A stretch of DNA of 64,000 nt from Actinoallomurus sp. (GTDB taxonomy: Bacteria; Actinomycetota; Actinomycetes; Streptosporangiales; Streptosporangiaceae). Positions 10,557-27,780 of the stretch are shown in pieces. The stretch is from positions 1 through 64,000 of the forward strand of contig JAOPYL010000336.1 in the NCBI GenBank assembly GCA_025964625.1. Reading direction: 5' to 3'. The notes under the pieces were generated by a model that saw only the letters and a list, made by a program, of their open reading frames with translations, had not been told where the DNA came from and made no database searches. Positions within the stretch are counted from its first letter, which is position 1; every line of letters starts with the position of its first letter. The translations under genes were made by a program, and so were the position numbers.

Positions 10557-12950
10557 CTATGTGTCCCGCCCGTGGGGCCGCCGGTCCTCGGCGCGTGCCT
10601 GTTCATCGGCCGACTGCCCGGTGCCCTCGTTCTGCTCGGTGACCCAGGCGGCGATGTGTGCGCGAGAGTTGAAACCGAGCTTGTTCAGGATGTGCTCGAT
10701 GTGACCCTCGGCGGTGCGCTCGGCGATGACCAGCGCGGCCGCGATCTCCTTGTTGCTCATCCCCTGAGCCACGAGCTGGGCGATCTCCGCCTGGCGGCGT
10801 GTCAGCGCCGGTGGCCGGTCCGCCATCTCCTGCGGGTCCGGCGCCGGCCTGCCTTCGTGGAGGGCATAGGCGAGCGCCTCGTCGCGGAAGAGTTCGGCAC
10901 CGTGCTCGGCGGCCGTCTGGAAGGCGGCTTCGCCGAGGGCCTCGCGGGTGCCGGCCTCGCAGTCGCCGTGGTAGCCCGCGAGATACCGGTATCCGGACAG
11001 CGGGCCGTCCGCCGCCCGCCAGGCGGTCCGCAGGATCCCGAGCAGCCGGGCGGCCCGTGGATACTGCTCGTCGGCGGCGGCGATCCAGGCCAGCGCCTCG
11101 AGGTTCAGCACGGTCCCCCGCGGGTCGCCGAGGGCGCGGTTGAACCGCAGGCTCTCCTGCTCCAGTGCGGACGCGCGCCGGATGTCGCCCTCACGCCAGA
11201 GCTCGATGCCGAGCGCCATCCTGGCGTACGCCATGTGCCAGCCCTCGCCGCCGGCTTCGCACACGGCGAGGGCCCCCTCGGCGAGCCTGATGGCGTGCGG
11301 CGCGTCACCGAGCCATGAGTAGGTGAGGGAGAGCCGCGTGAGCGCCAGTGCCAGGCCCGCCGGTTCCCCCGTGGCGCGGTGGCGGGCCACCGCGTCCTCG
11401 CCGAGCCCGACCGCGGATGCCGTGTCGCCCCGGGCCATGGCGACCATCGCCGAGTGGAGGACGGCCCACGCGAGGACCCGCTCCAGCCCCAGCCGCTCTC
11501 CGATGAGCCTGCTCTCGTCGAGCATCGCCGTGGCGGCGTCGGGCTCGGCCTGGATGATCGCGAGCCAGCCGCAGGCGCACAGCGCCCGGGCCCGGGTCTC
11601 GGTCGCCGCCGTGTCGGCCGCCAGCCCACGGTCGAGCCAGTCCCGTCCCTCGCCGAGATGACTGCCGGTGATCCAGTGGTAGAGCAGGTCGGTGGCCATC
11701 GTCAGGCCCATCCTGGGTTCGGCGGGCTCGGAGAAGCAGCACTCGAGGGCGGCGCGAAGGTTGGCGTGCTCGAGCCTCAGCCGGGTGAGCCACACGGCGT
11801 GCGACCGGCCGGCCGGTTCGATGCTCGCCTCGGCCGACAGCCGCTGGTAGTAGTCGCGGTGCCGGCGCCGCAGCGCCGCCTCCTTCCCGGACGCGGCGAG
11901 CCGTTCGCGGCCGTACTGGCCGATCGTCTCCAGCAGGCGGTACCGCACTCCGGCCGGATGCTCCTCCCGTATCAGGACTGACTTGTCCACCAGCCCGATC
12001 ACCAGGTCGATGACCTCCTCGCGGGCGATGCCGTCGCCGGCACAGACCGCCTCGGCCGCCTCCAGGTCCAGGCCGCCGCTGAACACCGAGACGCGTGCCC
12101 ACAGGAGGCGCTCCGGGTCGGTGCACAGCGCGTCACTCCAGTCGATCAGCGCGCGCAGCGATCGATGCCGGGCCGGTACCGTCCTGGATCCGGCCGTGAG
12201 CAGCCGGAACCGGTCGTCCAGCCGCTCCAGCAACTGGTCCACCGACAGCGCCCGCAACCGTACGGCCGCCAGCTCGATCGCGAGCGGGATGCCGTCCAGC
12301 CGGCTGCAGATCCGCTGCACCGCCTCCCGGTTGGCCGCGGTGACGGCGAAGCCCGGCAGCACGGCCTCGGCCCGTTCGGCGAACAGCCGCACCGCGTCGG
12401 TGTACGCGGGCGAGCCGTCGGCGGTGCGTGTGCCGTCGGGCAGCGGCAGCGGGGGCACCGTGAACGTCTGTTCGCTGGCGACTCCCAGCGGCTGCCGGCT
12501 GGTCGCGAGGATCCGCAGGTCGGGGGCGGAACGCAGCAGTACCTCGGCGAGCACGGCGCAGGCGTGCAGGAGGTGCTCGCAGTTGTCCAGGACCACCAGC
12601 GCCCGCTTGTCGTGAAGGTGGCCGATGAGCACGTCCGTGGGCGGCCGGGACGAGCGCTCCCGGATCGGCATGGTCTCCGCCACGGTCTGCGGGACCAGCT
12701 CCGGGTCGTCCAGCTCGGCGAGCTGGACGAGCCGCACGCCGTCCGCGAAGGCCCGCCGCAGGTCGGCCGCGACCCGTGACGCCAGCCGGGACTTGCCGAC
12801 GCCGCCCACCCCCGTGAGGGTCACCAGGCGAGAGGCGGCCAGGAGCCGCTTGACCTCGGCCGCCTCATGCCGACGCCCCACGAAACTGCTCACCTCGGCC
12901 GGCAACCCGGAGGTCCGCCGCCGCTTCGAGGTGCTCGCTTTCACATCCAT
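10557..12950 (-). CDS. LuxR-family regulator with NB-ARC-like ATPase domain
   Basis: FVGRRHEAAEVKRLL...LTGVGGVGKSRLA; C-terminal LuxR HTH 'LTRRQAEIAQLVAQGMSNKEIAAALVIAERTAEGHIEHILNKLGFNSRAHIAAW'. Confidence 0.9.
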   Translation of the reverse strand: MDVKASTSKRRRTSGLPAEVSSFVGRRHEAAEVKRLLAASRLVTLTGVGGVGKSRLASRVAADLRRAFADGVRLVQLAELDDPELVPQTVAETMPIRERSSRPPTDVLIGHLHDKRALVVLDNCEHLLHACAVLAEVLLRSAPDLRILATSRQPLGVASEQTFTVPPLPLPDGTRTADGSPAYTDAVRLFAERAEAVLPGFAVTAANREAVQRICSRLDGIPLAIELAAVRLRALSVDQLLERLDDRFRLLTAGSRTVPARHRSLRALIDWSDALCTDPERLLWARVSVFSGGLDLEAAEAVCAGDGIAREEVIDLVIGLVDKSVLIREEHPAGVRYRLLETIGQYGRERLAASGKEAALRRRHRDYYQRLSAEASIEPAGRSHAVWLTRLRLEHANLRAALECCFSEPAEPRMGLTMATDLLYHWITGSHLGEGRDWLDRGLAADTAATETRARALCACGWLAIIQAEPDAATAMLDESRLIGERLGLERVLAWAVLHSAMVAMARGDTASAVGLGEDAVARHRATGEPAGLALALTRLSLTYSWLGDAPHAIRLAEGALAVCEAGGEGWHMAYARMALGIELWREGDIRRASALEQESLRFNRALGDPRGTVLNLEALAWIAAADEQYPRAARLLGILRTAWRAADGPLSGYRYLAGYHGDCEAGTREALGEAAFQTAAEHGAELFRDEALAYALHEGRPAPDPQEMADRPPALTRRQAEIAQLVAQGMSNKEIAAALVIAERTAEGHIEHILNKLGFNSRAHIAAWVTEQNEGTGQSADEQARAEDRRPHGRDT

Positions 12951-17622: not shown

Positions 17623-18165
17623 ATGCCGGAGGTCTCCGTAGCGACGAGCGTGATCACTACGTTGGGTACGGTGCTGGCCGCGCTCGGCGGGATCGGCATG
17701 ACGCAGGGGATCGGTGCGCGCATCGAGCGGCAGAAGAGCGAGCGCCGGCGGGTGGAGGAGTCCGTCCGGCGGCGGGATCGGACCTGCGGCGATCTGATGG
17801 CCGCGGCCAGGAAGCTCAGGCTTCAGATCGCCGTCACCTCAAAGGGCGGTCGCTGGAAGGACATGGACGTACGGCTGGCGGCGATCCAGGAACAGGCGGC
17901 GGTCGTCAACCAGCACGTCTCCCACGTTGCCCTGCTGGCTGGCGAGGACGTCGTGGTGGCGGCCCGGGATCTCGGCCGGCACGCGGATGACCTGGCCGGT
18001 TTCGTCGCCGAGAAGACCGAGATGACGCCGGGAGCCGGATCGGAGGGCGTTCTGGGGGAGGAACCCGACTTCACGGCCTACGAAGCGTGCCTGAAGGAGT
18101 TCGAGGCCCTGGCGCGTGAGAGTCAGGCCGATGGGCCGTCGGGGCCGGGCCGCAGGATGCGCTGA
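17623..18165 (+). CDS. Hypothetical protein
   Basis: 180-aa ORF from ATG 17623 with N-terminal hydrophobic segment; convergent with and overlapping the 3' end of the next gene. Confidence 0.5.
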   Translation: MPEVSVATSVITTLGTVLAALGGIGMTQGIGARIERQKSERRRVEESVRRRDRTCGDLMAAARKLRLQIAVTSKGGRWKDMDVRLAAIQEQAAVVNQHVSHVALLAGEDVVVAARDLGRHADDLAGFVAEKTEMTPGAGSEGVLGEEPDFTAYEACLKEFEALARESQADGPSGPGRRMR

Positions 18166-20060
18166 GCCTCTGCGCGCTGCGGAGGCGACAGGGGCGGATC
18201 GGTGGCTTCGTCGGCCCGGCGTGCCAGGTCGGCGGCGGCGACGCGGTCGCCGCCGAGCGCCAGCGTGCGTGCGGCGTACAGCAGCACTGGACCACTACTG
18301 GGCGCGTCGGCGAGGGCGGCGTCGATCTCCGCGTGGGCGGCGGAGTGATCACGTAGCGTGGCGAGGGCCAGGCCACGGGCGGCGCGGGTCGCCGGACGCT
18401 GGTGAGGTCCCACGCGGTCGAGGTCACGGAGGGCCTCCGTGGCCTGGCCGAGGTCGGCGAGCAGCTCACCCCGGGCCTGGAGTGCCTCCGGAGTGTCGCC
18501 GTCGATGGCGAGCACGTCGCTCAGCACGGCCACCGCGGTCTGTCGCTGCCCCATACGTGACAGTGCCCGGCCGAGCTCGGTGTGGAACGCCAGGTCGTTC
18601 GGCAGCCGCTCCACCGCGGCGCGGAGCCCGCTCACCGCTTCGGCCTCGCGTCCCTGCGCCAGGAGGGCACGACCGATGGCGGCCAGCAGCCGCCCGACGG
18701 CCGCGCTGTCGCCGATCGTCTCCGAGAAGTAGGCGGCGGAGCGATAGTGCGTCTCGGCGACCGCCGGATCACCACGCAGGTAGGCGATGTCGCCGAGGAG
18801 CGACTCTGTCTCCGCGCGTGCTCGCAGGTCGTCGCCGTTGAGACGCAACGCCTCTTCGGCATGCCGTTGGGCCTCAGGGAAATCACCCTCATTGAGAGCG
18901 TGGCCGGCCAGCCTCAGCTTCTCGGCGCCGTCGGCGTCTTGTGGCGGCTTCAGATCGGCCACGTCGAGCCGCCGGAGGGGCCGGGCGAGGCGGTCGTGCT
19001 GCAGCCGATAGCCGCCAGGACCTGCCTTCAGGACGTGCCGGTCTTCGAGGGCGCGCAGTGCTCTGACGGGGATGTCCGAGTCGAGGGCCGATTGCCGGGT
19101 GAATCCCGGTTCGCCGTCGAGTGCACGCTGCAGCCATGAGGTGAGCCGCAGTGCGGACACGCCATGTTCCGCCGCGGCGTGGGCGACCGCCTGGCCACAG
19201 AAATCAGTCAGCCAGCGATCGAAGTCGGCGTGCTTGGCCACGTCGCCACGGCTGATCATCGGCGTCGCACGGGGGAGGGACGACCACAGCCCGGAGCAGC
19301 CCACCTGAAGAAGAACGGGTTCGATGGCCGTCACCGGGTCACCGCTGATTTCGGAGACGACCATTTCGGCGGCGTCCGGCTCGAACACGCGGCCGGCCGC
19401 CCGGGCGGGCCGTGTCATGGCCTCCGTCGCCGCCTCCCGGGTGAGGGCCGGCAGGCTGAAGGCGGCGGCATCATCCAGGCGGTAGCCGTCGGCGTGTTCG
19501 TCGCGGACCGCGATCAGCAACCGCAGACCGGGCAACTCGTGCAGCGCTTCGGCCAGCTCGGCCAGGAACGCGGCTCGCTGGGGCTCCTGGGCCGCCGGTC
19601 CGTCGAACAGCTGCTCGGCCTGGTCGATCACGGCCAGTGTGCGCCGGCCGTCGCGCCGCGCGGTCTGCGGGCGGCGGCGCCGCAGAAAATCGGCGAGCGT
19701 ACGGCCGGCCAGCACGCTCACGTATTCGGCCGGAAACCAGGAGGAGAGCAGTGCGAGCGAATACCGATTGTGGGCGGGGAGTGCGGCGATCGGGCCGGAC
19801 GGGGGCAGAACGAGACGTCCGGTGGGCAGGACGTCCCCGGCCGGCTCCATCCGGGGAAGCAGCCCGGCGGTGATCAACGAGGTCTTGCCGACCCCCGCCG
19901 CGCCCGACAGAAGGGTCAGCGGCGTGCGGTTCCACAGGGCCGCGACCTCGGCGGATTCTCGATCACGGCCGAAGAATTGGTCGGCCTCCTCCGAGCGAAA
20001 AGGACGAACGCCGACATAGGGAACTCGGTCCACGCCATTGGTGAGGGTGGTGACCGTCAT
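18123..20060 (-). CDS. STAND-type NTPase (nSTAND1-like) with C-terminal TPR region
   Basis: 'PYVGVRPFRSEEADQFFGRDRESAEVAALWNRTPLTLLSGAAGVGKTSLITAGLLPRM' P-loop with nSTAND1-like flank; TPR-like C-terminus. Confidence 0.75.
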   Translation of the reverse strand: MTVTTLTNGVDRVPYVGVRPFRSEEADQFFGRDRESAEVAALWNRTPLTLLSGAAGVGKTSLITAGLLPRMEPAGDVLPTGRLVLPPSGPIAALPAHNRYSLALLSSWFPAEYVSVLAGRTLADFLRRRRPQTARRDGRRTLAVIDQAEQLFDGPAAQEPQRAAFLAELAEALHELPGLRLLIAVRDEHADGYRLDDAAAFSLPALTREAATEAMTRPARAAGRVFEPDAAEMVVSEISGDPVTAIEPVLLQVGCSGLWSSLPRATPMISRGDVAKHADFDRWLTDFCGQAVAHAAAEHGVSALRLTSWLQRALDGEPGFTRQSALDSDIPVRALRALEDRHVLKAGPGGYRLQHDRLARPLRRLDVADLKPPQDADGAEKLRLAGHALNEGDFPEAQRHAEEALRLNGDDLRARAETESLLGDIAYLRGDPAVAETHYRSAAYFSETIGDSAAVGRLLAAIGRALLAQGREAEAVSGLRAAVERLPNDLAFHTELGRALSRMGQRQTAVAVLSDVLAIDGDTPEALQARGELLADLGQATEALRDLDRVGPHQRPATRAARGLALATLRDHSAAHAEIDAALADAPSSGPVLLYAARTLALGGDRVAAADLARRADEATDPPLSPPQRAEAQRILRPGPDGPSA

Positions 20061-20312
20061 ATGGGCGATCCCATCCGGGGTCGTGAGCGCGTGCGGGCAC
20101 GCGGGCCGAAACGCGAATGCCGGGTCGTCGGCAGGTCGTTCGCCGGCAAGGACCGCGCGCCGCACATGCCAGGACGGCGAACGGCGTGGCGCGTCCTGAG
20201 AATGATCCCGCGAAAGTGCACGTAAAACGTCCAGGCTCGGCGGTGGCGACCGGCGAATCTTAGCGGCCTATCGGTGGATCCCGCGAGCGCTGATGCCGAA
20301 TGAGACTGCTCC

Positions 20313-20480
20313 TCACACCCGGTTCGTGAACCCTGCCGACCCTTCGCCGGAGTCCCCTCGCTCGAGCAGGCGGGCCAGCTCGCGGTCGAGGACCGTACGG
20401 TCGACGCCGGCCAGATCGCGGAGCGACACGCCCGAGAGATCGATCGGTCCGCCGTCGAGCTCGCCGGTGTCCTCGCACAT
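20313..20480 (-). CDS. FxSxx-COOH-family RiPP precursor peptide (FxNxx variant)
   Basis: 55 aa: MCEDTGELDGGPIDLSGVSLRDLAGVDRTVLDRELARLLERGDSGEGSAGFTNRV; leader resembles FxsA leaders, Phe four residues from the C-terminus; adjacent to FxsT-, HExxH- and FxsB-like genes. Confidence 0.8.
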   Translation of the reverse strand: MCEDTGELDGGPIDLSGVSLRDLAGVDRTVLDRELARLLERGDSGEGSAGFTNRV

Positions 20481-20743
20481 GTGCTCCCCCTGCCCGTCCG
20501 CGGGTCGTCCATCCGGTTCCTTCCCATCTGTCCGTCGGAGGAATCTAGCCGGATCGGGCCGAGATCTCTGGCGGCTCATACAGACAGCATCACCCGTGGA
20601 CCGCGCCGACGCATACCTGTGCAGGTAAAAGTCCCGCTCGGGAGACGATGTTCGGGCCGGCTCCAGGGCCACGCCGTACCGCCAACATGGGCGTATTCGG
20701 GCTTTAACGGTTACAGATGCTGTTCAAGGGATCAACGTGACGT

Positions 20744-20810
20744 CTAGGGGTTTAGGTGGACGGCTTAATCGAAAGGTTTCGCTACGTCCACGCGAAGAAA
20801 GAACCCCTAG
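20744..20810. repeat. Nested, near-concentric inverted repeats upstream of fxsT
   Basis: Outer arms CTAGGGGTT 20744-20752 / AACCCCTAG 20802-20810; inner arms GTGGACG 20756-20762 / CGTCCAC 20785-20791; innermost CGAAA GG TTTCG 20770-20781. Confidence 0.85.
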
Positions 20811-20854
20811 GATGGCCGTATATTTTCGCGATCGGTGAAAGGACGCGGGCGCGC

Positions 20855-23419
20855 GTGGCTAGTTCACAAGGGCGGGGAGGTGTCCCTGCGGTCTGGGGTC
20901 GCAAGATGCCGGGACGCAACAAGAATTTCACCGGCCGTGACGGCCTTCTCGAGCAACTGCACGACAGCATCCAGAGCCGGGCGACCGCGGTCGTCCCGCA
21001 CTCCGGCCAGGCGGCGGTTCGGGACAGACCGGAGAACATGTCCCACGCGCTGCAGGGTATGGGCGGTGTGGGCAAGACCCAGCTGGTCACCGAGTACGCC
21101 CATCGCTACCGGTCTGAGTACGACCTCGTCTGGTGGGTACCGGCCGACCAGCCGATGCTGGTCCGCCCGTCTCTCGCGGGTCTCGCGCCCTACCTCGACC
21201 TCCCGCCCGCCACGGCGACCGGGATCCCCGAGGCCACCGAGGCGGTGCTCGAGGCCCTGCGTAAGGGCGAGCCGTACGACCGCTGGTTGCTGATCTTCGA
21301 CAACGTCGATCAGCCCGAGGATCTCGAAGGTCTGCTGCCGGAGGGCCCGGGGCACGTGCTGATCACCTCGCGGAACCACCGCTGGCAGGGCGTGGTCGAC
21401 ACGCTGCCGGTCGACGTGTTCCAGCGCGAAGAGAGCATCGAGTTCCTCAACCGGCGCGTTCCCGCCGCGATCAGTGACAGCGATGCCGAACGGCTCGCCG
21501 CCGAGTTGGGCGACCTCCCGCTGGCGCTCGAACAGGCAGGCGCCCTCCAGGCCGAGACCGGCATGCCGGTCGACGAATACCTCGATCTGCTGAAAAAGCG
21601 GACCACCGAGCTGCTGTCGGAGGGCAAGGGATCGGAGTACCCGCACTCGATGACCGCCGCGTGGTCGCTGTCGGTCTCCGCCTTGGACCGCAAGCTTCCC
21701 GAGGCCGTCGAGCTGCTGCGCTGCTGTGCGTTCTTCGGCCCGGAGCCGATTCCGCGCGACGTGTTCCGGCGCGCCGGCCGAGCCACCCGGCCACTGCTCG
21801 GCACCGTGCTGGCCGACCCGATCCTGCTCACCCGGGCGATCCGCGAACTCGGCCGGTTCGCGCTCGCTCGCGTCGACGTGGGCAGCCGTACCATTCAGGT
21901 GCACCGGCTGGTTCAGGCGCTCCTCCGCGACGAGTTGAGCGAGGAAGACCGGGATCTGTTCCGCCGCGAGGTGCCGGCTCTGCTCGCCAGCAACGCTCCC
22001 AAGGACCCGGACGACGACAGCCGGTGGCCGCGCTTCGCCGAGCTGGTCGCACACGTCATCCCGGCGCAGGTGGCCGACAGCAGCGACCCTGAGGTCCGTG
22101 ACTTCTCCCTCAACATGGTTCGCTACCTTTACCAGTCCGGCAACCGGCAGGCTGCGCGTACGTTCGTCGAGGAGTTCCTGCGGCGCTGGGAGCGCGAGCC
22201 CGGCGCCGAGAACGACCTCCGCGTCCTGCTGGCCCAGCGGTTCCTCGCCGACGTGCTTCGCGACCTCGGGGAGTATCAGCGAGCCGCCGACATCGACAGT
22301 GCTCTGCTCGACCGAGCCCGGCGGACATTCGGTGAGGACGACCCCAGCACGCTGCTGTTCCTGGGTGGACTCGGAGCGGATCACCGGGCCCTGGGCGAGT
22401 TCGCGGTCGCCAAGGAGCATGATGAGCTGGCCCGGCGCCAGCACGACGCCGTCTTCGGCCCCGACGACCCGCGGACCATGCGCATGGTGAACAACCTCGC
22501 CCTGGACTACGCCCTGGTCAGCCAGTACCAGACGGCCCGTGAGCTCCACCTGCTCGCCTTCACCCAGCAGAGCGAGGCCTTCACCGGCGTCAGCAAGACG
22601 AACGTGCTCGCCTCCTGGAACGGCCTCGCCCGGGTGCTCCGGCAGTGCGGCGAGTACGCCGCGGCCCGCGACTTCGGCGAGGAGGCGTTGGAGTTCGGCC
22701 GTCAGGAGCTCGGACCCGAACACCCATGGACCCTGCGCACCGGCAAGGACCTCGCCATCGCCCTGCGGCGCACGGGCGACTACGAGCAGGCACTGGAGCT
22801 GGCCCAGGACGTCTTCGATCGATGCGGCCGGCTGTTCGGCCGTGACAACCCCGACACCCTCGCCGCGGCGATGAGCCTCGCCAACGTGCACCGCGCGCTG
22901 GCCAACTTCGACGAGGCGCTCGGCCTTGCGGAGGACACCATGAACCGCTACCCCGAGGTGTACAGCGACCAGCACCCCTATTACCACGGCTGCATGGGCA
23001 ACCTCGCGCTGCTCCACCGAGTGACCGGAAACGTCGAGAAAGCACGCGAGCTCAACACGACCAGTCTCGCCGGCCTCGACGCCAAGCTCACCCGCGACCA
23101 CCACTATTCATTGACCGTGGCCACCAACCTCGCCAGTGACTTCGCCCTGCTGGGCGATTTCGCCGAGGCGCGAAGGCTCGGCGAGGACAATCTGACCCGT
23201 GCCCGTGTCGTCCTCGGCCACCGGCATCCGCTGACGCTGGGATGCGCCGCCAATCTGGTCGCAGACCTGCGAGCCGACGGTGCCGCGGAAAAGGCCGCGG
23301 AGCTCGCCGAGAAGACCTACGCGGACTACGACGACACACTCGGCCGCGACCACCCCGACACCAAGGTCGCCAAGGGAGGCCGGCACCTCGACTTCGATTT
23401 CGACCCGCCGCCGATCTGA
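20855..23419 (+). CDS. fxsT: FxSxx-COOH system tetratricopeptide repeat protein (FxsT-like; NB-ARC + TPR)
   Basis: 'PAVWGRKMPGRNKNFTGRDGLLEQLHD...GMGGVGKTQLVTEYAHRYRSEYDLVWWVPADQP' plus TPRs; GTG at 20855 is a likelier start than the ORF-track start at 20756. Confidence 0.85.
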   Translation: MASSQGRGGVPAVWGRKMPGRNKNFTGRDGLLEQLHDSIQSRATAVVPHSGQAAVRDRPENMSHALQGMGGVGKTQLVTEYAHRYRSEYDLVWWVPADQPMLVRPSLAGLAPYLDLPPATATGIPEATEAVLEALRKGEPYDRWLLIFDNVDQPEDLEGLLPEGPGHVLITSRNHRWQGVVDTLPVDVFQREESIEFLNRRVPAAISDSDAERLAAELGDLPLALEQAGALQAETGMPVDEYLDLLKKRTTELLSEGKGSEYPHSMTAAWSLSVSALDRKLPEAVELLRCCAFFGPEPIPRDVFRRAGRATRPLLGTVLADPILLTRAIRELGRFALARVDVGSRTIQVHRLVQALLRDELSEEDRDLFRREVPALLASNAPKDPDDDSRWPRFAELVAHVIPAQVADSSDPEVRDFSLNMVRYLYQSGNRQAARTFVEEFLRRWEREPGAENDLRVLLAQRFLADVLRDLGEYQRAADIDSALLDRARRTFGEDDPSTLLFLGGLGADHRALGEFAVAKEHDELARRQHDAVFGPDDPRTMRMVNNLALDYALVSQYQTARELHLLAFTQQSEAFTGVSKTNVLASWNGLARVLRQCGEYAAARDFGEEALEFGRQELGPEHPWTLRTGKDLAIALRRTGDYEQALELAQDVFDRCGRLFGRDNPDTLAAAMSLANVHRALANFDEALGLAEDTMNRYPEVYSDQHPYYHGCMGNLALLHRVTGNVEKARELNTTSLAGLDAKLTRDHHYSLTVATNLASDFALLGDFAEARRLGEDNLTRARVVLGHRHPLTLGCAANLVADLRADGAAEKAAELAEKTYADYDDTLGRDHPDTKVAKGGRHLDFDFDPPPI

Positions 23420-23428
23420 TCGCCCGGC

Positions 23429-24766
23429 TCAGGACAGCGGGGCCGCGGACGGCATGCGGATCTCGCCGTTACGGCGGCGCCAGCGCGCGCGGTGGCATTC
23501 GTCGTCCTGGCGGGCCAGGGCGGTCGCGGCGGCCGGCACGCGCTCGTCGTGCCAGCTCGCCTGGGTGTGGTGCATGCCGGAGACGAAGGTCGTGCCCTCG
23601 GGGGTCAGCCGCCCGCAGGTCAGCAGCGTGTGCACGACCAGACCGGCGGCGGCCCGCCATCGGGCGAACTCGGCGTTCGCGTGGACGGCCGCCCCACCGC
23701 GTTCATGCGCGCGCTGACGGCGCCAGAAGCCGGTGACTCCGAGGTAGGCGTAGGCGCCCTGGAGCAGGCCGTTGACCGGGCGGGGATCGTCTCGCCAGGG
23801 AGCGTAGTAGCGGCTGCCGTCGTCGGGCAGCGTCAGGTCGACCAGGCCGAGCAGCGCGGTGAGCTTGCCGTGCTGGATCTCGTGAGCGAGGGTCACCGCC
23901 AAAGATCGGGCGTTCGGCGGGGTGGACAGGGCGACGCAGCCGAACGTGTCGCGTGCCGTCGCGCTGACCTGGCCCTGTTCGGGCGGCGACAGCGGCGTGA
24001 GCACCCGCAGACCCGCGCCGATCTCCTGGGCGGCCATTCCGTGATGGCGGACGAGCGTCTCCCAGGCCGGCCCGAACGCCGCGACCCACAGCCGTACCTC
24101 GTCCTCGCTCAGGCGGTCCGAGACGTTGCCCACCAAGGGCATGCGGTACGGGTCGACGTCATCGATGAGCAGGTCGAGGGTCGTGCCGCCCGCCCGTGCG
24201 GTCAGCCGTCGCAGACCGCGCCATCCCGGCGCGTCCGCGTACGGCTCCCGGGCCACTCTCACCGTCGGGCCGGTGGAAGCAGTGATCTCGGCACCGGCGC
24301 CGGTCACGCGTACGAGCACCCGGCCGCGCGCGAGGGTCGCCGCACCGAGCGACGGCAGCGACAGGACACCGTCGGCGGTGCTCACCTCGATCGAGCAGCG
24401 GACACCGGCGCGGATCGCGGCCGCCGCGGCGAGCGCCCCGAGCCGGCCGGGCGCCGCGTCCGGAGAATCGGTCGCCAGGGCACAGAGCGTACGCTGCGCC
24501 CACGCGCCGGTGGACGGGTAGCGCAGCACGTAGTCGACCGCGGCCGGAGCCTGTTCCTGCAGGGTGCTGAGCAGCTCGAAGCCGCGTGCCGTGTCGGCGG
24601 CGGCCGGGTGACCGGTCGCCGAGGCCCTCTCCACGACGCCGCGCAGCAGCAGCATGCGTTTGCTGTACTCCACGTCGGCCAGTGCCCGGACCGCGTTCGC
24701 CCCGCCGCCGCCGGTGGCCAGGGCGGCGAACATCTCGCGGGGTAGCCGATGGGCGTGTAGGTTCAT
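23429..24766 (-). CDS. HExxH-motif domain protein (aKG-HExxH-type peptide beta-hydroxylase family)
   Basis: ATG at 24766, two nt after the fxsB stop; HEIQH in 'LAVTLAHEIQHGKLTALLGLVDL'; position directly downstream of FxsB. Confidence 0.8.
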   Translation of the reverse strand: MNLHAHRLPREMFAALATGGGGANAVRALADVEYSKRMLLLRGVVERASATGHPAAADTARGFELLSTLQEQAPAAVDYVLRYPSTGAWAQRTLCALATDSPDAAPGRLGALAAAAAIRAGVRCSIEVSTADGVLSLPSLGAATLARGRVLVRVTGAGAEITASTGPTVRVAREPYADAPGWRGLRRLTARAGGTTLDLLIDDVDPYRMPLVGNVSDRLSEDEVRLWVAAFGPAWETLVRHHGMAAQEIGAGLRVLTPLSPPEQGQVSATARDTFGCVALSTPPNARSLAVTLAHEIQHGKLTALLGLVDLTLPDDGSRYYAPWRDDPRPVNGLLQGAYAYLGVTGFWRRQRAHERGGAAVHANAEFARWRAAAGLVVHTLLTCGRLTPEGTTFVSGMHHTQASWHDERVPAAATALARQDDECHRARWRRRNGEIRMPSAAPLS

Positions 24767-24768
24767 CG

Positions 24769-26001
24769 CTATTTTTCCTGGAGCACGGTTTCGCGGCGGG
24801 CGTCGAGGTCCGCGGCGACCGTACGCCGGATATGGGTGATGAGGCGGAAGAGGTCGGGCCGGTAGACCGAGGGGTTGGCGAAGCCGCGGCCGGCCCGGTA
24901 ACGGTGGGCGTAGAGCCCGCCGCCGCAGACGCGATGCACGGGACAGGAGCGGCATTCGGCCGACAGGGCGAGTTCGCCGATCTGGCGGGCCGCGATCGAC
25001 GGCAGGGACAGCACGTCGTCGAAGGAGTCGCGGGAGACATGGAGGCCGGTCGCGGGGGCGCCGTCGTACGCGGACTTCAGCATGTCGGACTGTTCGATGC
25101 TGCCGTCGGTCTCGACGACGACCATGCCCACCGGGGACAGGCCGACCGCCTCGCTGGCCGACGCGCCGCCGAGCAGCAATTGGATGATCTCGCTGAACAA
25201 CCGGACCTCGGTCTCCTGGCGCGGCGCGCCGTACCAGCGGTCGAAGACGGCGATCAGCCAGTCCGCGTACGGGGTGGCGGGCGAGCCCGGGACACGGACC
25301 GGCGGCGGAGAGGTCCAGTTGCCATGCGGAAGCAGGAAGTCGATCCTTGGCGGGCCGTGTTCGAGAAGGGCTTCGTACGTCACCAATGGCGGATTCCGGA
25401 CATCGATCGTGCAGAGCAGCCCGCTGAACAGATGCCGGAAGCGAGCCGAGCCGAGCCGGCCGAGGGCGGCCGCGACCGCGGCGTGGCTGCCGTTGCCGTT
25501 CGAGTGCCGCCGGTGTCGGTCATGTGCCGCCGCGTCGCCATCGAGGCTCACGCCGACCTGCACGTCCAGCTCGTCGAAGAGGTCGAGGTAGGGCCCGAGT
25601 CGTACGCCGTTCGTCTGCACGGACGCCCGGACGTTGATCGACGGCCCGGCGGCCCGGCGCACCGAGGACACGGTGTGCGCGATGAGCTCCGGTCCGACGA
25701 GAAGCGGCTCGCCGCCGTGCAGGACCAGTTCGACCGCTGTCAGGCCGTGTGCGCGGGCGTGCTCGGCGATCCGGCCGGCGATCCGCTCCACCAGTGCGGG
25801 GGACATGCGGTGCGGCTGTTCCCGCCAGCTCTGGTCCGCCATCTCGTACATGTAGCAGTAGTCGCAGGCCAGGTCGCAACGACTGTTGATCTTGAGAACG
25901 AACTCGCGGAACGGCGTCGGCCGCCAGCCGGCTGCGATCAGTGCGCCGACGTCCAGCGTGCCCGGCCACTCCATCTCGGACGGCCCCCGATTGACTGCCA
26001 C
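24769..26001 (-). CDS. fxsB: FxsB-family radical SAM/SPASM peptide maturase
   Basis: CDLACDYCYMYE (CxxxCxxC) and SPASM-like 'CRSCPVHRVCGGGLYAHRY'; 'PFREFVLKINSRCDLACDYCYMYEMADQSW'. Confidence 0.9.
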   Translation of the reverse strand: MAVNRGPSEMEWPGTLDVGALIAAGWRPTPFREFVLKINSRCDLACDYCYMYEMADQSWREQPHRMSPALVERIAGRIAEHARAHGLTAVELVLHGGEPLLVGPELIAHTVSSVRRAAGPSINVRASVQTNGVRLGPYLDLFDELDVQVGVSLDGDAAAHDRHRRHSNGNGSHAAVAAALGRLGSARFRHLFSGLLCTIDVRNPPLVTYEALLEHGPPRIDFLLPHGNWTSPPPVRVPGSPATPYADWLIAVFDRWYGAPRQETEVRLFSEIIQLLLGGASASEAVGLSPVGMVVVETDGSIEQSDMLKSAYDGAPATGLHVSRDSFDDVLSLPSIAARQIGELALSAECRSCPVHRVCGGGLYAHRYRAGRGFANPSVYRPDLFRLITHIRRTVAADLDARRETVLQEK

Positions 26002-26345: not shown

Positions 26346-26876
26346 GTGGGGAGATGCCGAGTACGGAACCTGCCGGTCCGTCCCGCGGGCCGTCCAGGGC
26401 GAGTTCGGCACAGCCGGGTTGACGTGGCGGCCGACAGGGTGGTGCTGGCGGGGGTGGACGGCACCGATTCGGGCCGGGCGGCGTTGCTGGCCGCGGCCGG
26501 CGAGGCGGCGGCAGATGGTTCGCGGCTCGTGGCATTGCATGTGCGGCGCAGCCCGCTGCCGATGGAGTACCTGGCGTGGGAGGCGCATGCGTTCGGTGCG
26601 CAGTGGCGGGACGAGCTGGAGCTGGAGGCGTGGCTGCAGTGCACGGTCATCCTCGGCGACCTCGCTGTGGACTGGGAGTACGCCGTCGCCGACGGGAGCC
26701 CCGTCGAGGCACTGTGCTCGTGCGCCCTCGCGCGTTCGGCGCGGACGGTGTACGTCGGGGCGCGGATCCGCTCCGGCTGGGGGGCGCGCCTGCATCGCTG
26801 CCCGGCGGATGAACTCCAGCGTCGCTGCCCGTGTACGGTGCGCGTGGTCCGGTTCCGGACCACCCCCCGCGATTGA
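26346..26876 (+). CDS. Universal stress protein-like
   Basis: 'ADRVVLAGVDGTDSGRAALLAAAGEAAADGSRLVALHVRR' USP-like start; the true start may be internal. Confidence 0.55.
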   Translation: MGRCRVRNLPVRPAGRPGRVRHSRVDVAADRVVLAGVDGTDSGRAALLAAAGEAAADGSRLVALHVRRSPLPMEYLAWEAHAFGAQWRDELELEAWLQCTVILGDLAVDWEYAVADGSPVEALCSCALARSARTVYVGARIRSGWGARLHRCPADELQRRCPCTVRVVRFRTTPRD

Positions 26877-26934
26877 GTGCCGTGCGGACCGCGCCGCCCA
26901 CGCCGGTGCCGGCCGGCACCGGCGTCGCCGCCGG

Positions 26935-27780
26935 TCAGCTCGCCGCGGCCGCGGTGTCGTAGAGGGCCTTGACACGGTCGCCGAAACAGGGGCTGTAAGA
27001 GACGCTCGGAGTGTCGCCGCCCGTCTGATACCCGCCGATCACGCCGATGACCTCGCCGGTCCGGGTGACCCAGGGCCCACCGCTGGTGCCGTCGGTGAAT
27101 CCTCCGCAGGAGAACCGCATCTGGGTGGCGCTGTGGCGTGAGGCGCGGCCGGTGCAGGCCACGGGCCGGTCGCCGTCGCCGGGATAGCCGGTCACGGTGA
27201 CGAGCTCGCCGAACCGCGTGCTGAGGCCGAGCGTGTTCGCGCCCGTGACGCCGGCGATGTTCCTGCCCGACAGGGGCTGGAGGATGATGAAGCCCACGTC
27301 GTCGTCGGGATCGGCGGTGCTCGCCCATTCCCGGTCGACGAACATCGCCCTCACCGTCCAGACCCCGTACGGGGCGCGGCCACCGGCATAGCCGGGCGCG
27401 AACACCAGCCCCTTCCGGTAGCCGCCACCACCACCCGCGCCGTAGATGCAGTGCGCGGCGGTCACCAGCATGTCGCCCCCCGGACTGGCCACCACGCTCG
27501 CCGTGCACGAGTGCCGCCCGCCGACCCCGGACCGGAGCAACGGGCCCACCGCCGCCAGACCGGGAACGGGGGTTCCCGGGGTGACGTCCGTACGCCTGCG
27601 AGCCCGCCGGAGCCGCCGGGCCTTACCCGTGGCGGGGTGGCGTGAGGACGGTGAGGCAGGCTGGGATCCGGCCACCGATGCCGCACGGCCCGTGGTCGTC
27701 AGTAATGACAGCAAGATTGCCAAATGTGCGGTTCGTCGGGAAAGGGGACCGGCGGAAACCCCTACCGCGTTCGTGCTCAT
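26935..27780 (-). CDS. Secreted trypsin-like serine protease
   Basis: 'LVTAAHCIYGAGG', 'DDDVGFIILQP', 'GGFTDGTSGGPW' catalytic triad context; N-terminal signal-like segment. Confidence 0.88.
   Translation of the reverse strand: MSTNAVGVSAGPLSRRTAHLAILLSLLTTTGRAASVAGSQPASPSSRHPATGKARRLRRARRRTDVTPGTPVPGLAAVGPLLRSGVGGRHSCTASVVASPGGDMLVTAAHCIYGAGGGGGYRKGLVFAPGYAGGRAPYGVWTVRAMFVDREWASTADPDDDVGFIILQPLSGRNIAGVTGANTLGLSTRFGELVTVTGYPGDGDRPVACTGRASRHSATQMRFSCGGFTDGTSGGPWVTRTGEVIGVIGGYQTGGDTPSVSYSPCFGDRVKALYDTAAAAS

Follow-up and report, generated by a model that had tools for sequence, protein, structure and literature searches.

The FxSxx-COOH RiPP system, with FxsA, FxsB, FxsC, FxsT and a HExxH protein as its components, is said to have been described by Haft and Basu in 2011. 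FxSxx loci are common in actinobacteria, and the function of their peptide is not established in the literature searched. FxSxx processing has been tied to an AP-ATPase-TPR protein in the VMAP ternary conflict systems, a toxin or signal role being proposed for the peptide (Kaur et al. 2020, PMC7159879); a term search of that text finds mention of neither nSTAND nor SIR2. Coupling of FxSxx to an NB-ARC/TPR protein is thus already known. Enzymes of the ChlB/ChlH type form the cyclophane and carry out an aKG-dependent beta-hydroxylation that needs the cyclophane to be preinstalled (PMC12636437), and Phe-Asn and Phe-Ser cyclophanes are known products of related maturases (PMC11002830). We found no account of an nSTAND1 module with exchangeable partners in the literature searched, subscription journals being outside our reach. 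The locus described here belongs to such a module.

The cassette in the window

The window, by which we mean the whole 64,000-nucleotide stretch analysed, holds at 17623-26001 a complete FxSxx-COOH (three-residue-cyclophane) RiPP cassette, comprising fxsA, FxsB, an aKG-HExxH homologue, FxsT, an nSTAND1-TPR protein and a further gene, U:

17623..18165, plus strand: gene U, 180 aa, N-terminal hydrophobic helix and helical domain; convergent with nSTAND1, 43-bp overlap
18123..20060 (open frame to 20165), minus strand: nSTAND1-TPR protein, 645 aa; PF20703 115.5 bits, cut-off 27.1, E 5.6e-33; TPR models
20313..20480, minus strand: fxsA precursor, 55 aa; TIGR04268 28.6 bits, cut-off 28; same position in relatives
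20795..20815, plus strand: AACCCCTAGGATGG, likely core of the fxsT promoter, ~90 bp ahead of the gene; YTAGGATG motif in relatives
20906..23419, plus strand: fxsT, NB-ARC (AP-ATPase) and kinesin-light-chain-like TPR protein, 837 aa; NF040586 1023 bits, cut-off 300
23429..24733 (frame from 24766), minus strand: aKG-HExxH-type peptide beta-hydroxylase homologue, 434 aa, HEIQH motif; TIGR04267 175 bits, cut-off 40
24769..25974 (open frame to 26001), minus strand: fxsB, radical SAM/SPASM three-residue-cyclophane maturase, 401 aa; TIGR04269 479 bits, cut-off 370

The initial annotation had named five of these genes as an FxSxx-type locus with two STAND NTPases, and profile searches of NCBIfam and Pfam find the genes real and the names right in essence: precursor, FxsB, HExxH and FxsT exceed their NCBIfam cut-offs, and nSTAND1 that of Pfam. 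The five lie inside the block first assigned, 18123-26001, whose left end moves to 17623 to admit U. We place the edge at U because the window and its nearest relative, a locus of the same genus (L035), share U and the genes inward of it (nSTAND1, fxsA, fxsT, HExxH and fxsB), and only these, while the other flanking genes differ. Between the two loci dN/dS is 0.23-0.35 for the five larger genes, with U at 0.35, and 0.58 for fxsA; all cassette genes are therefore under purifying selection. The window's genome has one copy of fxsB. The trypsin-like and Usp neighbours (26424-27471) were rejected as cassette members, having no homologues in nine related loci compared. Carriage by a plasmid or phage was also rejected: there were no phage matches, and the sole match in the plasmid database is a chromosome-sized record of 11.9 Mb. 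The nSTAND1-type cassettes look chromosomal, without support for a mobile element; for an empty-site comparison within the genus, the flanking genes proved too scattered. Elsewhere in the window, at 10557-12950, lies an NB-ARC/TPR/LuxR-type regulator with a weak nSTAND1 match that is unrelated to the cassette.

The precursor carries the conserved leader motif IDLSGVSLRDL and ends in SAGFTNRV. That the 55-aa frame might have no FxsB-linked homologues, the first way in which the original proposal could have failed, is answered by its TIGR04268 score, which exceeds the cut-off marginally. Its FTNRV tail has Asn in place of Ser; among 78 relatives with a readable last aromatic residue, the position two beyond it (a tally of C-terminal F-x-[SNAQ]) is Ser in 42 and Asn in 15. 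From this tail, and from the Phe-Asn cyclophanes reported for related maturases, FxsA is predicted to carry a Phe-x-Asn cyclophane. The precursors of L039, L043 and L191 end in GHDSSI, GHQSSV and RHDSMI, with His for the Phe of the FxS motif, and so a His-type cyclophane is predicted there. The precursor diverges faster than its partners, being 41% identical between the window and L035, against 67-78% for the other cassette proteins. FxsB has the cluster motif CDLACDYC and is homologous to ChlB, whose radical SAM domain has a solved structure (9gm3, E 1.4e-77). Homologues of known structure also exist for the HExxH protein, namely the HExxH-type 22nu (E 6e-49) and ChlH (8s5f); a role as leader peptidase was rejected, since homology and the NCBIfam family name indicate a beta-hydroxylase.

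FxsT most likely starts at 20906 rather than 20756, as the NF040586 family model begins there. Its TPRs match kinesin-light-chain TPR structures (E 5e-16); repeats of this type bind peptides. Of 111 regions upstream of fxsT, 24 have YTAGGATG between -145 and -70, and none has it in a control interval. Many relatives (L047, L130, L146, L148, L200 and others) have, about 80-140 bp upstream of fxsT, a conserved block approximating GATTCTGTGA-N16-AATCAACCTYTAGGATG, of which the window retains only the AACCCCTAGGATG part; the block suggests a shared regulator. The window's likely promoter core is embedded in an inverted repeat, CTAGGGGTT at 20744 and AACCCCTAG at 20802. We discarded this repeat as a conserved element, as it is missing even in L035, and likewise the palindrome ACCTGTGCAGGT in the fxsA-fxsT gap, found in only 2 of the 111 upstream regions.

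nSTAND1 starts at 20060, with the MTVTTLTNGVDRVPYVG start that L035 also has. With its P-loop (GAAGVGKTS), Walker B motif (AVIDQAE) and C-terminal TPRs as sensor it has the features of a STAND NTPase; the P-loop and DQAE columns are invariant in the nSTAND1 alignment (A1), and the predicted model matches the STAND-TPR protein 6mfv. The window's nSTAND1 has no fused effector domain.

Neighbours and partners of nSTAND1 in relatives

The original proposal would also have fallen had nSTAND1 not been syntenic with the fxs genes in relatives, but it is. A protein search of 151 genomes of the family, at least 90 of which have an FxsB, found nSTAND1 in 66, with 104 homologues tabulated; at least 79 homologues lie within 12 kb of an FxsB. 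The pooled non-redundant loci with enough flank number 103, a minority of which entered the set because they carry FxsB: beside nSTAND1, FxsT is present in 103 of 103, FxsB in 95 and HExxH in 89, while FxsA could be detected in 67. An independent sample, drawn by searching named genomes with the nSTAND1 alignment alone, gave 79 loci, 77 of them at least 9 kb long; FxsT is present in 75 of the 77, the exceptions, L133 and L202, being cut by contig ends. The 103 loci span Streptosporangiaceae, Thermomonosporaceae and Pseudonocardiales, and Frankiaceae-type genomes have the same neighbours. Order and strands are mostly kept, the usual layout being fxsA-(SIR2)-nSTAND1 on one strand, a divergent fxsT, then HExxH and FxsB. 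This synteny makes the window locus a recurrent FxSxx subtype and no odd assembly; the "non-standard architecture" first suspected is not upheld, FxsT being a defining FxSxx component and the nSTAND1 form recurring in dozens of genera.

Some cassettes have company. In L044, L048, L050, L054, L129 and L137 the complete fxs-nSTAND1-SIR2 cassette is present twice; the pair mirror each other about head-to-head FxsB genes and encode different precursors. In L159, L170, L172 and L182-L186 (Herbidospora, Acrocarpospora) an nSTAND1-SIR2 fxs cassette adjoins a canonical FxsC-FxsBH one, and in some genomes nSTAND1 cassettes adjoin VMAP-MoxR or FxsC-type modules.

The partner encoded next to nSTAND1 is exchanged among relatives. 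Directly ahead of nSTAND1, and after fxsA, 54 of the 103 loci carry a gene for a protein of ~290 aa that resembles SIR2 NADases, and 59 of the 63 SIR2 homologues in the 151 genomes are within 500 bp of an nSTAND1. The protein is a SIR2_2 (PF13289, E 1e-29), closest to ThsA in PADLOC and to ThsA and the NADase KomC in the PDB; the Asn motif (TTNYD) and the His motif ([H/F/Y]LHG) are both intact in 58 of the 64 distinct copies, and a further four combine TTNFD with HLHG. SIR2-STAND Avs proteins are among the SIR2/TIR NADase defence effectors. Between HExxH and FxsT, the Nonomuraea cassettes L138, L141, L143 and L152 have one more SIR2-like gene, a divergent one. In Frankiaceae, L213-L217 and L219-L222 are missing SIR2 and have FxsC, a TIR protein, in its place; L218 gives a weak FxsC-like match only. 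SIR2 of this family is absent from the window's own genome. The initial annotation had recognised no FxsC nearby, and this extends to the entire assembly (95% complete), searched by HMM (NF040588/TIGR04276) and by protein. The protein query was a genuine FxsC: it is the TIR protein found in canonical loci, and the two FxsC models give it 197 and 137 bits. FxsC is not universal, being absent from most of the separate-FxsB loci examined. The window's branch has neither SIR2 nor FxsC, and its genome lacks the NADase effector of SIR2/TIR-STAND defence.

The window's cassette ends in U. The 151 genomes contain 12 U homologues, 11 of them convergent with, and no more than 706 bp from, an nSTAND1. 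U never accompanies SIR2 in the 103 loci (Fisher p 1e-5). This value gives no support for numerous independent swaps, because the nSTAND1 tree has mostly one deep split; independent SIR2/U effector swaps were rejected on this ground (3 changes for U, 9 for SIR2). U may represent one acquisition, the U-type loci grouping on that tree with few changes. Its AF2 model (pLDDT 85.6) is a confident helical bundle with the N-terminal hydrophobic helix modelled unsurely. U has no match in Pfam or PADLOC; the likeness to SLATT is slight (NCBIfam E 0.057), and the best hit of a PDB fold search (E 0.078) is uninformative. It is a candidate for a membrane-anchored effector acting in trans, or for a membrane partner. 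In L044, L060, L061, L064, L093, L147, L165 and L168, mostly SIR2-type loci, another membrane protein (~270 aa, no Pfam match) occupies the position of U, convergent with nSTAND1.

Possible functions of the cassette

The NADase-type partners in relatives make a peptide-gated STAND switch the likeliest reading of this triceptide cassette, though we hold it tentatively, as falling just short of an even chance: an intracellular peptide would gate a STAND switch that fires a trans effector, leading to immunity or cell death. In FxsA, FxsB would cross-link Phe with the Asn two positions further along, giving a strained cyclophane, and the HExxH enzyme would beta-hydroxylate the product. The mature peptide would stay in the cell, where the TPR sensor domains of FxsT, nSTAND1 or both would bind it as a ligand or guard it as a decoy; disturbance of the peptide or its maturation, by infection for example, would let nSTAND1 oligomerise, driven by NTP, and fire the effector encoded in trans. 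Relatives would use a SIR2 NADase or the TIR-type FxsC for this, and in the window U is the best candidate; abortive infection or regulated cell death would follow. The data themselves show gene content, homology, conserved synteny, exchange of partners and purifying selection, from which we infer the chemistry in this organism, the binding of peptide to STAND protein, the activation and the outcome. The conflict or immune role suggested at the outset gains real support from the SIR2 and TIR partners of relatives; the fast-diverging precursor, the VMAP-MoxR and FxsC-type modules next to some cassettes and the earlier conflict-system proposal for FxSxx processing also speak for it. The window itself has neither partner, and U may be no effector. 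Also counting against an immune role, the literature searched holds no experiment linking any FxSxx locus to defence, PADLOC gave no good system match to nSTAND1 and only weak, superfamily-level matches to the window proteins, and the chromosomal look of the cassettes gives no mobile-element support.

The peptide could instead be a secreted triceptide, a bacteriocin or signal exported by an MFS protein and regulated through, or sensed by, the two STAND/TPR proteins in RRNPP-like fashion. We think this unlikely, even though 51 of the 103 loci have an MFS gene no more than 2.5 kb from nSTAND1, the conserved fxsT promoter element speaks for common regulation, and RiPPs typically have short precursors whose core lies at the C-terminus. 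Neither FxsT nor nSTAND1 has a DNA-binding domain by Pfam profile search, the cassettes of the window and L035 lack a leader peptidase and an exporter, and secretion leaves no place for NADase-type partners such as SIR2 and FxsC. In 28 loci that lack both SIR2 and U, a gene for an MFS transporter lies near nSTAND1; these proteins could export the peptide, which would better fit a secreted product and counts against the peptide-gated reading. Less probable again is that the system releases the peptide as its toxin or amplifier, the STAND proteins being triggers of the peptide rather than receptors for it; a role of this kind for the peptide has been proposed for FxSxx loci (Kaur et al. 2020, PMC7159879). 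Rapid divergence of the precursor agrees with this, but the proposal needed cleavage by the HExxH protein, whose characterised relatives are aKG-dependent beta-hydroxylases (PMC12636437), as NCBIfam names the family, and SIR2 and FxsC loci already hold separate effector genes.

It is similarly improbable that U is a mere conserved neighbour and that the window cassette has decayed, losing a former SIR2 effector. The absence of SIR2 from the genome fits such a loss, as does the exclusivity of SIR2 and U, which largely reflects one deep split in the nSTAND1 tree and not many independent events. Against it, purifying selection extends to every gene, U included; U sits at the exact edge of what the window shares with L035, where all other flanks differ; and nearly all U homologues adjoin nSTAND1.

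Relation to known systems

A broader form of the peptide-gated reading is that a cross-linked RiPP serves inside the cell as ligand or guarded decoy for paired NLR-like switches (FxsT and nSTAND1-TPR) driving exchangeable trans effectors (SIR2, TIR/FxsC, U), an undescribed immune architecture of multicellular actinobacteria; we rate this as rather doubtful. The strict tie to nSTAND1, together with the SIR2 and TIR enzymes of relatives, gives the loose idea of a conflict system a form that experiments can address, namely whether a cyclophane peptide gates an NLR-like switch; if it does, RiPP chemistry would be joined to bacterial innate immunity.

Set beside the FxSxx-COOH system, the window has precursor, FxsB, HExxH and FxsT all above curated cut-offs, but it lacks FxsC, encodes FxsB and HExxH separately instead of as an FxsBH fusion, and adds nSTAND1-TPR and U. 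With the VMAP ternary systems it shares FxSxx precursor, HExxH, radical SAM-SPASM and AP-ATPase-TPR proteins, and some nSTAND1 loci adjoin VMAP-C/EAD2 and MoxR; VMAP, MoxR and vWA are not adjacent in the window gene calls, although they stand beside some relatives. Compared with triceptide biosynthesis (MscB, ChlB-ChlH), FxsB is homologous to ChlB (E 1e-77) and HExxH to ChlH and 22nu, and Phe-x-Asn and Phe-x-Ser are known sites (PMC11002830), whereas the STAND genes fall outside the chemistry described and the window cassette is known from its genes. The combination of STAND switch and NADase-type effector found in SIR2/TIR NADase defence (Thoeris ThsA, KomC, Avs) recurs in the window's relatives, with the difference that the effector is a separate gene and a RiPP precursor and its maturases are attached; the window has the switch, precursor and maturases without SIR2 or TIR.
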